Shown: positions 48,771-55,408 of the stretch, one piece after another
How the letters are laid out: every line of letters starts with the position of its first letter
Position numbering within the stretch: the stretch's first letter is position 1
Assembly: GCF_004363555.1 (NCBI RefSeq)
Contig: NZ_SNZJ01000006.1
Location: 62,001-126,000, forward strand
Origin: Halomonas ventosae
GTDB taxonomy: Bacteria > Pseudomonadota > Gammaproteobacteria > Pseudomonadales > Halomonadaceae
Direction: 5' to 3'
Length of the DNA: 64,000 bases
Translations under genes and position numbers: made by a program
Notes under the pieces: generated by a model
Told to the model about the DNA's origin: nothing
The model's input: only the letters and a program-made list of their open reading frames with translations
Databases searched by the model: none

Positions 48771-50771
48771 ATGAGCGAAGAGACTGGCGAATCCGCCCAC
48801 CACGACGACGAGGGGTCGAGCGAGCGGGTAAAGCAGCTTGACGCCGCCATCGAACGGCTTGCCGCCGCCAATGCCATTGCCGGAGTGTCTCCCGTCTTCG
48901 AGGTGCTCGAGGCGGCACGCCCCCTGATGGTCGACGACCGTGGGCTCGAGGTCCTCTATGCGCGTGTGCCGGCGATCGAGGCCGCCGGGTTCTTCCGAGG
49001 CAGCGACTGGGACTACCCCCAGACACTGGTGCCATCCCTCGCCGTGCGTACCGTGCGTCATGGCGACCCGGTCGCCACCCTGGTCGAGAGCTTGAGCCAG
49101 ATCCGCCTGCTGGCCGTCGCCCAGGGCGACTATTCCCACCCTTCCCTCTCGGCGGAGCATGCGCATCACTTTCTCGCCCAGGTGATGGCCATGAACCTCG
49201 ATCTCGTGGTCGGCGACCTGCACGAGGGCGACCGTCTACGGCCGGACCGGCTCGGTTACGCCGTCCAGGCCCTGTATCGCTACCTGCTGCATCACCTGGG
49301 GTACGAGAACCTCCTGGAGCACCTGGTGGCCGAAGTCTGGCGCATCCTGGCGCAACGCCCGGTCCAGGTGGAGGGCGTGAAACAGATGGTGACCCAGATC
49401 GCCTCCTGCCTGCCCAGACTGGAGGATCGGCCGAATGCCATGGCCGGCGAGGTCGGGGACGACGCCCGGCAGCTGATCAACGCCGTGTTCAGCCCCACCG
49501 AGGGCTGCCGCGAAGACCCCGGCTTCGAGACGTATGCCGAGCGGCTGGCGAGCATGGACGACGCGGCCCTGCTGCAGGAGGCCATTGCCTTTGCCCAGGC
49601 CATGCACAGCACCGGCCTGGTCTCGCCCTACATGCCGGGGTTCATCCGTTACCTGCGCGGGCGCTGGAATGCGCTGATCCCCACGGCACTGGGCCTGAGT
49701 CATACGGGAGCCGACGCCTTTCACTGCTACCCGGCGCTGATCCACACCCTGATCGATGAGGCCCTGTTTGCCGAGACCAGCCAGGCCGCCTACGGTCTTG
49801 CCATGATGCTCGAACGCGGCATCCTCTACTCGCCGCCGGTGGCCCCGTCGCTGTGGCGACAACTGAGAATGACGCTGTGCGATGCGGCGGCAGAGAAGGT
49901 CACTGCTGTCTTCGGGGATCGTCGCTCGCCGGAATGCTTTCTGCTCGCCGACGTTCTCAATGTGCTCGGCCGCCCGCTGGGCGTGGGTCAGGGGAACTAC
50001 CCCACCTGCCAGTCGACACGCGCCCTGTCCATGTGGGCCTTCAACACACCGGCCGACCTGCTCCGGGTCGTCGCCTGGGCGGCGCGAGATGACGAGATCG
50101 TGATGCGCTTCGAAGGTCACAGCATTTCCTCCCGCGACCTCGGCACGGGCCTGGCCGCCGAGCCTCCCGTGGATGTTGACGCTGTCTCCCTGCTCACCGT
50201 GCCGCACCTCGATCGCATCTACTTCGAGATGGGACGCCGCAGCGTCGGGCGCGGAGAGGATCCCCACAAGTGGGTCAACGCCGAGTTCCATGGCGATCAC
50301 GTGGGCCATGGCTTCCGCATCGCGGTCGATGTGTTTACCGGCGGGCTGAAGGACTTCGAGGGGTTTATGCGTGACTTCTATGCCGCGTACCACCCCTTCT
50401 ACAACGGCAACATTCCGGTGATCAATCCGCAGCCGGCAGGCATTGCCGTGACCGACAGCGCCACGCGGTTCCTCGGCTGGCACGCGATCACGATCCAGCG
50501 CCTGGCGCTCGATCCGAACCAGGTCATGCGGGTCTACTTCTTTAACCCCAACAACGACAGTGGGCAGGACTGGGGGCAGGGAATCGTCACCTCGACCCAG
50601 GGCCATGGCGAACTCTACGGTGAGGCCTCGCTGCCGGTGGCCCAGTTCGCCTCGCGACTCTACGTCTTTCACTACGACCCGCTCGAGAAGGGCGAGCCGG
50701 CCGATGTACCAGACGATGAAGTGTATCGGGCCATGGGTCTGGCCCGCGATAGCTGGGCGTCGGGGCGCTAG
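48771..50771 (+). CDS. Uncharacterised 666-aa protein with papain-like catalytic pattern
   Basis: No named family recognised. The N-terminal ~380 residues look helical (SAEHAHHFLAQVMAMNLDLVVGDLHEG; HHLGYENLLEHLVAEVWRILAQ). The C-terminal part has GQGNYPTCQSTRALSMWAF, in which Gln407 precedes Cys413 by six residues as Q19 precedes C25 in papain, then GWHAITIQRL (His571) and YFFNPNND (Asn592), the order and rough spacing of a Cys-His-Asn triad. No signal peptide or membrane segment. An in-frame ATG at 48741 is the alternative start. It is followed after 85 bp by an ATP-grasp ligase. Confidence 0.6.
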   Translation: MSEETGESAHHDDEGSSERVKQLDAAIERLAAANAIAGVSPVFEVLEAARPLMVDDRGLEVLYARVPAIEAAGFFRGSDWDYPQTLVPSLAVRTVRHGDPVATLVESLSQIRLLAVAQGDYSHPSLSAEHAHHFLAQVMAMNLDLVVGDLHEGDRLRPDRLGYAVQALYRYLLHHLGYENLLEHLVAEVWRILAQRPVQVEGVKQMVTQIASCLPRLEDRPNAMAGEVGDDARQLINAVFSPTEGCREDPGFETYAERLASMDDAALLQEAIAFAQAMHSTGLVSPYMPGFIRYLRGRWNALIPTALGLSHTGADAFHCYPALIHTLIDEALFAETSQAAYGLAMMLERGILYSPPVAPSLWRQLRMTLCDAAAEKVTAVFGDRRSPECFLLADVLNVLGRPLGVGQGNYPTCQSTRALSMWAFNTPADLLRVVAWAARDDEIVMRFEGHSISSRDLGTGLAAEPPVDVDAVSLLTVPHLDRIYFEMGRRSVGRGEDPHKWVNAEFHGDHVGHGFRIAVDVFTGGLKDFEGFMRDFYAAYHPFYNGNIPVINPQPAGIAVTDSATRFLGWHAITIQRLALDPNQVMRVYFFNPNNDSGQDWGQGIVTSTQGHGELYGEASLPVAQFASRLYVFHYDPLEKGEPADVPDDEVYRAMGLARDSWASGR

Positions 50772-50856
50772 CCCGACGATGCCTGGCACTCAAGCTCGAC
50801 AAGAACGCAATAAATCGAGCGTCAATACCCTGCCACAGGCAGAAGGAGAGCAGCAC

Positions 50857-52164
50857 ATGTCGACCGTATCGGAAACCCCGGCCGCCAAGGACGTCTCAAG
50901 CTGGACCGACCCGACACTGGATTCGGTAAAGGGAACGGAAACCCCCAAGGACCCCAACAAGGGCTACATCGCGCTGCTGGGCTGGAGCGTCAATGCCATC
51001 AAGGCCGCGCAGAAGTTTGACCGCCGCTATGTGGTGGTAGCGCCGGACTGGGCCGCTGACTTCTGCGAAGCCAACAAGATTCCGTACATTCAATGGGATT
51101 TCGTGCGCCTGAACGATCGCTCCATGGAGATCGCGGAGCGGCTCAAGGAAGAAGGCGTGGATGTGGCCATTCCGCTGTTCGAGGAAACCGTCGAATGGTC
51201 GGGTGCGATCAACTCGGTGCTCATGGACAGCCCCCGCATGTACGGGCAGTCCATCCTGTTTCGCGACAAGGCACTGATGAAGCGCCGCGCCCAGCTGGGC
51301 GGTATTCGCGTGGGGATCTTCGAGGAAGCCCACGAGAAGGATGACATCATCCGCTTCATGAAGCGCGTCAACCAGACGCTGCTCAAGCTCGACGGTGACC
51401 CCGATGACCCGATACACGTCAAGGCCTTCGACAAGGCCGGCTGTCTCGGGCACCGCATGATCCGCAAGATCGACGAGATCGACAGCATACCGGCCGAAGA
51501 GTATCCCTTGCTGATGGAAAGCCACCTCGACGGCTGGGAGTTTGCTGTCGAGGCCTGGATCCATGATGGCAAGATCAAGTTCCTCAACATCTCCGAGTAT
51601 GTGACTCTGGGCTACTCGGTATTCGTTCCCGCCACCCGCGAACTCGAGAGCTGGCGTGATGCCATCACCAAGCAGATCGAGAAGTTGATCAAGACGTTCG
51701 ACATCCAGTTCGGCCTGATCCATCCCGAGTACTTCGTGGCGGCGGACGGCGAGATGTACTTCGGCGAAGTCGCCTATCGCCCGCCCGGCTTCAAGGCCTT
51801 CGAGCTCATCGAGCGCGCCTACGGCTTCAGCCCCTATCAGGCATCGATGCTGGTCTTCGACCCCAAGAGCACCAAGGAGGAGGTCGAGGCCTTCTTCCCC
51901 CGCGAGGTGGTCGACGCCAAGGGCTATGCGGGCTGCTTCGGGGTGTACCCGCGGCGGCGTGTCGTCAGCAAGCTGGAGATGCCCAAGGAAACCATCGAGC
52001 ACCCCTACTTCGAGTCCCACGAGCTGGTGGCGCCCACCGAGGAGACGGTGCCGGACCGCTCGGCATTCGGCACGCACTGGGGCCTGGTGTTCTTCTTCGG
52101 TGACGACCCGATCAGGATGCGGGACCTGCTCAAGGCACAGGAGGAGCTGGACTTCTACGTCTGA
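50857..52164 (+). CDS. ATP-grasp carboxylate-amine ligase family protein
   Basis: 435 aa, AAGGAG 8 nt before the ATG. A pre-ATP-grasp Rossmann-like part (GYIALLGWSVNAIKAAQKFDRRYVVVAP), then RDKALMKRRAQLGGIRVG, HVKAFDKAGCLGHRMIRK, LLMESHLDGWEFAVEAWIHDGKI, and the metal/ATP strand GLIHPEYFVAADGEMYFGEVAYRPPGF. The catalytic pattern seems intact, so it should couple ATP cleavage to joining a carboxylate and an amine or similar nucleophile. Substrates unknown. Strong terminator follows. Probably co-transcribed with the papain-like gene. Confidence 0.75.
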   Translation: MSTVSETPAAKDVSSWTDPTLDSVKGTETPKDPNKGYIALLGWSVNAIKAAQKFDRRYVVVAPDWAADFCEANKIPYIQWDFVRLNDRSMEIAERLKEEGVDVAIPLFEETVEWSGAINSVLMDSPRMYGQSILFRDKALMKRRAQLGGIRVGIFEEAHEKDDIIRFMKRVNQTLLKLDGDPDDPIHVKAFDKAGCLGHRMIRKIDEIDSIPAEEYPLLMESHLDGWEFAVEAWIHDGKIKFLNISEYVTLGYSVFVPATRELESWRDAITKQIEKLIKTFDIQFGLIHPEYFVAADGEMYFGEVAYRPPGFKAFELIERAYGFSPYQASMLVFDPKSTKEEVEAFFPREVVDAKGYAGCFGVYPRRRVVSKLEMPKETIEHPYFESHELVAPTEETVPDRSAFGTHWGLVFFFGDDPIRMRDLLKAQEELDFYV

Positions 52165-52206: not shown

Positions 52207-52234
52207 AAGGGCAGGGCCTGCGCCCTGCCCTTTT
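52207..52234 (+). terminator. Terminator after the ATP-grasp gene
   Basis: AAGGGCAGGGC (52207-52217) pairs with GCCCTGCCCTT (52222-52232), ending in TTTT. Confidence 0.9.
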
Positions 52235-52266: not shown

Positions 52267-53250
52267 CTAGCGTGCCATGTCGACCACCACGCGCCCACGC
52301 ACCCGGCCGGCGAGCAGCTCGCCCGCCGTGTCGATGGCCTCCTCCAGGCCGATCGTGCGGGTGATGGCGTCGAGCTGTTCGGGGGCAAGCAGCTCACCGA
52401 GCCGGCGCCAGGCCTCGACGCGATCCTCGTAGGAGCGCATCACGCTGTCGATCCCCACCAGGGTCACGCCTCTCAGGATGAAGGGGGCAACACTGCTCGG
52501 CAGGTCCATGCCCTGCGCCAGGCCGCAGGCCGCGACGGTGCCGCCATAGCGGGTCCCGGCAAGGACGTTGGCCAGGGTGTGGCTGCCCACCGAGTCGATG
52601 GCCGCCGCCCAGCGCTCCTTCGCCAGCGGGCGACCCGGTTCGGAGAGCTCTGCCCGGTCGATCACCTCCTGGGCCCCGAGCCCCTTGAGGTAGTCGGTTT
52701 CCTCCAGGCGCCCGGTGGAGGCCAGGACCCGATAGCCCAACCGCGCCAGGAGCGCGATAGCGTAGCTACCGACCCCGCCGTTGGCGCCGGTCACCAGCAC
52801 ATCGCCCTGATCCGGCGTGACGCCTTGTTTCTCGAGCGCCATCACAGAGAGCATGGCGGTATACCCGGCCGTGCCGATGGCCATGGATTGCCGGGCACTG
52901 AAGGCCGAGGGATGAGGGATCAGCCAGCGACTGTCCAGCCGGGCCTTCTCGGCCAGCCCTCCCCAGTGCTTCTCGCCGACGCCCCAGCCGTTGAGCAGCA
53001 CGGCGTCGCCGGGCCGGTAGGCGTCGGTCGACGAGCTCTCGACCGTGCCTGCCAGGTCGATCCCCGGCACCATGGGAAAGGCGCGCACCACCGGCCCCTT
53101 GCCGGTGATGGCCAGGGCGTCCTTGTAGTTGAGCGTGCTGCAGTCGACTCGCACCGTGACGTCACCCTCGGGGAGTCGCGACTCGTCGAGTTCCTCCAGC
53201 GACACGTGCTGGCCGTCGTCTTGCTTGTCGATCAGGATTGCCTTGAACAT
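52267..53250 (-). CDS. acuI: Acrylyl-CoA reductase (AcuI/YhdH-type MDR oxidoreductase)
   Basis: 327 aa. [49 protein letters not shown], and the NADPH loop [16 protein letters not shown] are the AcuI/YhdH pattern. Family members reduce acryloyl-CoA to propionyl-CoA and detoxify acrylate, for example from DMSP. It is preceded by a TetR operator and lies next to a tetR gene in the same direction. Confidence 0.9.
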
Positions 53251-54753: not shown

Positions 54754-54783
54754 CGTGTCATGCGCCTGCAGGCGCATGACACG
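54754..54783. promoter_or_regulatory. 30-bp perfect palindrome in the leader of the 54806 gene
   Basis: CGTGTCATGCGCCTG (54754-54768) is followed directly by its complement (54769-54783), ending 11 bp before the GGAGG ribosome-binding site. Could be an operator, a cruciform or an RNA hairpin controlling translation. A TATAGT -10-like box lies upstream at 54693. Confidence 0.7.
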
Positions 54784-54805
54784 ACCTTTCCTGGAGGAAC
54801 AACCC

Positions 54806-55408
54806 ATGCACGGCGTCCTGTGGGGAAGCATCATTGCCGCGGGGCTGGCCTCGGCCGGCCTGCCTGCCGGCAGTGCCCAGGCCGATGACGTCGAGGCGCT
54901 GGTCGCGTCGATCAAGGCGGCCACGGTACGCTTCGAGGATGTGAACGCAGCACTCGCGGAAGGCTACGTGCCGGACCCTTCCGGCGAGTGCGTGAGTGCC
55001 GCGGCCCATGGCCTGCCTGCCGAGCTCGGCGGCATGGGCATCCACTACCTGCGCCCGGACCTGCTCGGCCTCACGGTCACCGCTCCCCGGGTCGACGGCA
55101 CCGGGACCCACACCGACTTCATGAACCCCGCCATCCTGCTCTACGAGCCCCAGGCGGATGGCTCCCTGGTGCTGGTCGGGGTCGAGAACCTGGTGTTCCG
55201 CAAGGCCTGGGAGGCCGCGGGCCATGGCGCACCACCGACCCTCGCGGGTCGCCGCTGGGACTACATGGTCGACGACCCGGATACCCCTGCCGAGGAAGCC
55301 CACCACTTCGAGCCGCACTACGACCAGCACGTCTGGTTCCGCGACAACCCCAACGGCAACCTCGAGCCCTTCAACCCGGCGGTGACCTGCAACTCCTGGA
55401 ACGCTTGA
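54806..55408 (+). CDS. Secreted protein of unknown function
   Basis: 200 aa, GGAGG 8 nt before the ATG. Signal peptide ~1-27 ending AGSAQA. The mature protein has ECVSAAAHGLPAELGGMGIHYLRPDLL, a type I recall from unnamed periplasmic proteins, then NPAILLYEPQADGSLVLVGVENLV and a His-rich end (EEAHHFEPHYDQHVWFR). Two Cys could form a disulfide. The His cluster suggests metal binding, without proof. Confidence 0.75.
   Translation: MHGVLWGSIIAAGLASAGLPAGSAQADDVEALVASIKAATVRFEDVNAALAEGYVPDPSGECVSAAAHGLPAELGGMGIHYLRPDLLGLTVTAPRVDGTGTHTDFMNPAILLYEPQADGSLVLVGVENLVFRKAWEAAGHGAPPTLAGRRWDYMVDDPDTPAEEAHHFEPHYDQHVWFRDNPNGNLEPFNPAVTCNSWNA

Follow-up and report, generated by a model that had tools for sequence, protein, structure and literature searches.

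Glutathionylspermidine synthetase/amidase (GspSA) unites an ATP-grasp ligase and a papain-like cysteine amidase of the CHAP type in one fused protein, the two activities being directed at one amide. Papain-fold enzymes hold an acyl-thioester, which they then hydrolyse or transfer, and enzymes of the histone deacetylase (HDAC) fold hydrolyse N-acyl amines. Here we describe a two-gene cassette of Halomonas ventosae, found in a 64,000-nucleotide stretch of contig NZ_SNZJ01000006.1 (positions 62,001 to 126,000, hereafter the window), that encodes a predicted papain-like protein (PAP1) and an ATP-grasp ligase (ATP1). Across genomes the two genes are inherited in lock-step, and nearly so with a gene for an HDAC-fold deacylase. 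Our tentative proposal is that the three enzymes make and break an amide in salt adaptation.

Neither GspSA nor the Anbu operon, the other described system that we compared, matches the cassette, which is set apart by its separate genes, another papain-fold family, another type of ATP-grasp ligase and its HDAC-fold partner. The likeness to GspSA lies in an ATP-grasp ligase paired with a papain-like cysteine enzyme that would act on one amide (a likeness of enzyme types, with no sequence comparison made) and in the polyamine-like amine that we suspect for the cassette from the deacylase and its GNAT neighbour. Unlike the fused GspSA, the cassette enzymes are encoded apart in the window and in the loci read, the PAP model best matches calpains and staphopains and carries a helical part of 370 residues, the ligase is, by similarity, of the L-amino-acid-ligase type, and an HDAC-fold enzyme joins in.

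ATP-grasp ligases convert a carboxylate to an acyl phosphate and then join it to an amine, and the Anbu operon encodes an ATP-grasp protein, an alpha-E protein, a transglutaminase-like protein and Anbu, its role being unproven (PMC6376114, in the sections covered). It shares with the cassette an ATP-grasp ligase, a protein of a cysteine-enzyme type (the transglutaminase-like one) and a predicted amide-cleaving partner. On reading the cassette neighbourhoods, neither an alpha-E nor an Anbu gene was recognised, no family or genome-wide search having been made. The Anbu-operon ATP-grasp protein is said in those sections to resemble glutathione synthetase, whereas the cassette ligase is of another type, and the partner hydrolase of the cassette has a zinc-deacylase fold.

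Papain-type residues are invariant in an unnamed family

PAP1 (48771..50771, forward strand, ATG to stop, 666 aa) contains Gln, Cys, His and Asn in the papain order of clan CA, with the Gln six residues before the Cys. These are Gln407 (codon 49989..49991), at the oxyanion-hole position of papain-type sites; Cys413 (50007..50009), the predicted nucleophile and residue 1 of helix 413-425; His571 in the motif GWHAI (50481..50483), predicted as the catalytic base and located close to where strand 567-580 begins; and Asn592 in FFNPNND (50544..50546), the predicted third member right behind strand 586-591, all on the forward strand. The four residues were invariant in 40/40 aligned sequences that are 41-94% identical to the window's PAP, and in 99/99 sequences from loci, a set that includes the window's PAP and some closely related members. 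Because the invariance extends down to 41% identity, we rejected a chance origin of the set. An earlier note on this DNA had proposed a papain-type site at these positions and had asked after poor conservation of Cys413 and His571; the positions and their order were borne out, and neither residue varied.

The same note held that the protein belongs to no recognised family, with which our searches agree. PAP1 had no significant match in Pfam, NCBIfam, PADLOC or, by sequence, PDB, and a defence system, considered as a candidate, was set aside on the lack of a PADLOC match. When 40 PAP members were compared with Pfam, the best E-value was 0.029, to unrelated families, and no described papain-like family model was matched; nor was a Pfam domain present on the best 120 PAP relatives listed. 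A protein search returned 2369 relatives at E <= 0.001 among 7998 scored candidates, the closest among the matches listed being from Halomonas ventosae (96% identity).

In the predicted structure of PAP1, the N-terminal portion (residues ~12-372) is large and helical and the catalytic portion is C-terminal (~374-637), its best papain-fold matches being calpains and staphopains. The starts of the structure alignments, if ungapped, set Cys413 on what we take to be the catalytic Cys of the papains, and the predicted secondary structure puts His571 and Asn592 where papains presumably have theirs. Foldseek matches of the helical part include HEAT/ARM-type scaffolds, none of them significant. On this basis, PAP is a predicted papain-fold cysteine enzyme whose family has no name.

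The part of the tree shown contains at least four groups of PAP. The 4.0 Mb genome of the window holds a second cassette in reversed order, ATP2 then PAP2, with ATP2 79% identical to ATP1 and PAP2 55% identical to PAP1. In three loci a PAP gene adjoins a PAP gene of another subfamily, in tandem at L049:7986-12026 and L054:5873-9968 and divergently at L062:5520-9956, so that PAP has been duplicated more often than its ligase there.

The ligase resembles L-amino acid ligases

ATP1 (50857..52164, forward strand, ATG to stop, 435 aa) follows PAP1 after a spacer of 85 bp (50772..50856, forward strand), and the open reading frame (ORF) positions agree with those first reported for the pair. The domain PF13535 was matched by the window ligase, taken as a single sequence, with an E-value of 2e-5 and 24.6 bits, below the cut-off of 27, and was precomputed for 76 of the 120 ligase relatives listed (our own count), some of which are named 'carboxylate--amine ligase' in databases. 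The catalytic residues expected of an ATP-grasp enzyme, His289, Glu291, Glu304 and Arg308, were invariant in 22/22 orthologues, consistent with the intact signature that had been described.

L-amino acid ligases (RizA, BL00235, YwfE/BacD) supply the best fold matches of the cassette ligase and are among its profile matches. A profile of the 22 orthologues matched 4dim and the L-amino acid ligases 4wd3 and 3vot with E-values of 4e-4 to 1.5e-3. The predicted model is of low confidence (predicted local distance difference test score 63); with Foldseek its top three matches (E 2.5e-14 to 8.4e-12) are to RizA and BL00235, both L-amino acid ligases, and 178 PDB folds are matched by this low-confidence model at E <= 0.001. 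The 50 best listed of these we take, by their names, to be ATP-grasp enzymes or complexes holding one. The cassette ligase aligns its H-x-E, G-E and R positions with those of the L-amino acid ligases, but the profile match is weak (E ~1e-3), and the R-x-G-G-G stretch of these enzymes reads R-P-P-G-F-K in the cassette ligase. In the literature covered, L-amino acid ligases have no papain-like or deacylase partner. The similarities support ATP1 as a probable ATP-grasp carboxylate-amine ligase of the L-amino-acid-ligase type.

PAP and ligase genes are inherited together

We compared the distribution of the two genes in 369 genomes drawn from the class. PAP was present in 13 of them, and the ligase, at 73-100% identity, in exactly the same 13, so the co-occurrence that the earlier note had suggested looking for is without exception in this sample. 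A 14th PAP match (G263) was rejected as false and partial; its ORF reads like ResB, as far as we can judge. Eighteen further genomes gave only weak ATP-grasp matches, with 23-37% identity over part of the protein. In a sample of the phylum, PAP occurred in 11/398 genomes, two of them already in the class count; the remaining carriers had the ligase in 9/9, including a genome of another class (G400) with the genes adjacent. No ligase match was found in the 18 PAP-negative relatives tested, out of 387 negatives in the phylum sample. The named carriers belong to what we take to be halophilic, soda-lake or marine genera.

The genes are often, though not always, neighbours. Among the named loci (the best 80 of 376 PAP loci found), the ligase lay within 1 kb of PAP in 56. 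On the same strand it followed PAP in 25 and preceded PAP in 29, and in two it was on the opposite strand; the median gap was 90.5 bp between match ends. Homologues of PAP are therefore found beside an ATP-grasp gene, a point on which the pairing had been thought to depend. The other 24 loci had no ligase within the fetched stretch. For 22 of these, from 20 genomes (L033 and L037 were left out), a ligase match was found elsewhere in all 20 genomes, as at least two full-length copies in 14, as one in five and as fragments only in G387.

Clustering by all-against-all BLAST of ORFs of at least 90 aa gave lineage-bound neighbours only, which by reading are TlyA-like, KefA-like and YqjD-like, and no conserved small ORF that might encode a precursor peptide, shorter peptides being outside that search. 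As individual observations, a GCS2-type gene (glutamate-cysteine ligase family) and a Memo gene flank PAP1 at L145:9347-10828 (G545), and in three of the named Marinobacter loci (L045, L050 and L053) a GCS2 gene is again no more than 5 kb from PAP. A DUF6639 gene (PF20344) adjoins ATP1 at L144:12262-13197, in a genome with three PAPs.

An HDAC-fold gene usually accompanies the pair

The HDAC-fold partner (PF00850) emerged on reading divergent loci, not from immediate synteny, and supplies the third conserved partner whose search had been proposed. Its gene stands beside PAP or ATP in five lineages, and in three of these PAP, ligase and deacylase form one gene run: ATP-PAP-HDAC on one strand in G181, with 6 nt from the PAP stop to the HDAC start; PAP-ATP-HDAC in G347; and PAP-HDAC-ATP in G260, where the PAP stop and HDAC start overlap as ATGA. 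In G564 the HDAC gene faces PAP, and in Marinobacter confluentis it faces ATP1, with PAP elsewhere in the genome. The deacylase of the window's genome is on contig 10, outside the window.

At a cut of E <= 8.5e-100, chosen after the list was seen, a full-length HDAC-fold orthologue was present in 12/13 PAP carriers of the class sample and in 0/356 other genomes; a second set gave 7/9 carriers against 0/18 PAP-negative relatives. The best match in a non-carrier (G214) is partial, with an E-value of 3e-81 and 51% identity over residues 47-347. At >=63% identity, the orthologue was found in 8/13 carriers and again in 0/356 others. The partner count does not include the HDACs at L085 and L074, which are 33-42% identical.

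The partner deacylases resemble classical zinc deacylases and acetylpolyamine amidohydrolases of bacteria (PMC11532494, sections covered) in having PF00850 and in keeping metal and Tyr residues, with PPGHH, DWDxHHG, the third metal Asp and EGGY present in 14/14 sequences. These sections describe gatekeeper motifs, PEG in HDAC10, PKG in HDAC6 and PIS in bacterial polyamine deacetylases. Unlike polyamine deacetylases, all 14 partner deacylases lack a PEG or PIS motif (and PKG also), and their gatekeeper loop is shortened, being two residues shorter than in 8/8 control HDACs. Among these controls are the G214 protein, the best-matching HDAC from G160 and, from the window's genome, two further HDACs. 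In 7/14 the loop reads D-(M/L)-A-(M/L)-N.

The PDB matches of the deacylase include protein lysine deacetylases. A special kinship with HDAC6, suggested by an E-value of 1.9e-106, was dismissed as the sum of two HDAC6 domains of ~180 bits each; HDAC15 and a bacterial HDAH score ~213 bits, above each single HDAC6 domain. A GNAT gene is next after the deacylase in G171 and G279, with spermine/spermidine acetyltransferases as best PDB matches, and a related GNAT gene lies 5.7 kb on from the deacylase in the window's genome.

Genomic context points to salt

Ectoine synthase (PF06339, over cut-off) was found in 13/13 carriers and in 40/356 others of the class sample (Fisher p 2.8e-12, with no kinship correction). 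In G260 an ectC gene is directly downstream of PAP-HDAC-ATP on the same strand, and it is 90% identical to the ectC of G171, which by reading stands behind ectA- and ectB-like genes. Mechanosensitive-channel genes adjoin the PAP/ligase pair in G160 and in an Ectothiorhodospiraceae locus (L081), adjoin PAP1 of Marinobacter salarius (L041), and stand two genes on from the pair in Halomonadaceae. Solitary ectC genes and mechanosensitive channels are both described in the part of an ectoine review covered (PMC5924519). Any single one of these osmotic clues could stem from habitat or chance; as a set they point to salt.

Two further loci bear on ectoine. In G279, an ectoine-synthase domain (PF06339, E 1e-38) and an ATP-grasp domain (PF13535, E 8e-11) share one 584-aa ORF (L199:6053-7807, reverse strand), and this natural EctC-ligase fusion suggests an amide made from an ectoine-like compound. 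On contig 5 of the window's genome (L194:7491-9425), a second, divergent ectoine-synthase-like gene adjoins a gene that reads like an amidase.

Discussion

We propose that ligase, papain-like enzyme and deacetylase-fold partner together make and break an amide-bonded small molecule in a cycle that serves salt adaptation, a reading that we prefer while holding it to fall somewhat short of probable. The earlier note had supposed of the two cassette enzymes that they build and process an amide-containing small molecule or peptide tag; the deacylase, the second cassette and the osmoadaptation genes lay outside its view. The ATP-grasp ligase would activate a carboxylate as an acyl phosphate and join the acyl group to an amine, for which a diamine- or amino-acid-like compound is the likeliest candidate; PAP would hydrolyse the amide, or transfer its acyl group, via Cys413; and the deacylase would free an N-acylated amine, feeding or draining the cycle, whose direction may be set by salt or osmotic change. 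We infer a small-molecule substrate from the kinship of the ligase and from the GNAT, ectC and channel context, but not with certainty, since the helical part of PAP, the several PAPs per ligase and the conservation of the ligase would also fit a protein target.

Several observations weigh against this cycle. The papain-fold matches of the PAP model are middling (Z 8.4, root mean square deviation 4.6 Å over 205 residues), and Foldseek alone gave no match at E <= 0.001 for the model. The deacylase cut was chosen late, and the 12 carriers include the query's own genome, G181. The deacylases of G260, G158, G269 and G363 are only 46-50% identical, no closer than that of G214, and are set apart only by bit score, N-terminal coverage and the loop. 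The cut nevertheless stands, because the loop is short in all 14 partners, these four included, and full length in the controls. The deacylase is absent from 3/22 carriers (G160, G764 and G400), and its gene is mostly unlinked to PAP and ligase. The ectC gene next to the trio was seen on a single contig of 5.6 kb, from one draft genome, and the co-occurrence with ectoine synthase may reflect saline habitat. Finally, the closer identity of the ligase paralogues than of the PAP paralogues (79% vs 55%) and the three PAPs with two ligases of some genomes fit macromolecular partners as well.

These last points lead to protein tagging, in which the ligase would write an amino acid or other acid onto protein amines or carboxylates, and the PAPs (one to three paralogues) and HDAC-fold enzyme would erase it, targets being chosen by the helical part of PAP. 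We regard this as possible but rather unlikely. The big helical part with its HEAT/ARM-type (if non-significant) Foldseek matches, the several PAP subfamilies against fewer ligases, the high conservation of the ligase and the protein lysine deacetylases among the deacylase matches are all in its favour. The nearest solved relatives of the ligase, however, join free amino acids, as we understand their activity; several context genes are osmolyte and channel genes; and the neighbourhoods, read for proteins above 60-90 aa, showed no obvious dedicated target. A precedent of the idea is the Anbu operon, with its ATP-grasp, alpha-E and transglutaminase-like proteins and Anbu (PMC6376114, sections covered).

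The exact pairing of PAP and ligase in the class sample and the two paralogous pairs would also suit a two-subunit amidotransferase, in which PAP is a glutaminase-like feeder forming an acyl-enzyme at Cys413 and the ligase amidates a carboxylate with the channelled ammonia; amidotransferases in general combine a Cys nucleophile with an ATP-dependent partner. We think this improbable: the genes are not always adjacent, two of the three genomes of f183 have unequal copies (three PAPs, two ligases), and a helical part of 370 residues like that of PAP is not known to us from any glutaminase subunit, no search having been made. Equally hard to favour is a shared regulon, that is, three salt-stress genes of saline-habitat bacteria brought together through habitat and co-regulation, with no common reaction. 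The mostly unlinked deacylase and an ectoine synthase association that could be habitat are what such a regulon would give, but the 13/13 match of PAP and ligase and gene junctions that overlap or are 6 nt apart tell against it. Moreover, ectoine synthase occurs in 40 class-sample genomes that have none of PAP, ligase orthologue and deacylase orthologue, so habitat alone does not bring the trio.

The make-and-break cycle can be extended to a previously undescribed amide metabolism of halophilic Gammaproteobacteria, in which an enzyme of the L-amino-acid-ligase type makes an ectoine-linked osmolyte, and a new papain-fold amidase family, its helical domains serving recognition, dismantles this osmolyte together with an HDAC-fold deacylase that lacks the gatekeeper, the whole acting as a salt up-/down-shock switch. 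In this full form we consider it doubtful. The system was not found in the literature searched, most subscription journals being outside its reach: a word search of the main text of PMC9006882, PMC6104435 and PMC10960403 gave no mention of ATP-grasp or an amine ligase, and the graspetide survey PMC8939145 no match to terms for this system. ATP-grasp does not occur in the part of the ectoine review PMC5924519 covered, and the papain-like survey PMC10318531 does not name the PAP family in the parts covered, which exclude its supplements.

Across saline genera, a family of 666-aa enzymes that has neither name nor domain model is inherited strictly together with a ligase and almost as strictly with a deacylase. 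Should the osmotic interpretation be true, the salt adaptation of ectoine makers such as Halomonas includes an amide branch that has gone unrecognised; should protein tagging be true, a further reversible bacterial protein modification has its writer and erasers identified.

Remaining features of the window

Downstream of ATP1, a gene of the zinc-dependent-dehydrogenase type (52267-53250, reverse strand) converges on the ligase gene, and an 11-bp hairpin (52207..52232) lies between the two. The strong terminator described in the earlier note stood in part: the hairpin is present, but only four T follow it on the forward strand, and a terminator scan scored it on the reverse strand only. Further on, a 217-aa ORF (54755-55405), with no family at a meaningful E-value, has a start that reads like a signal peptide.

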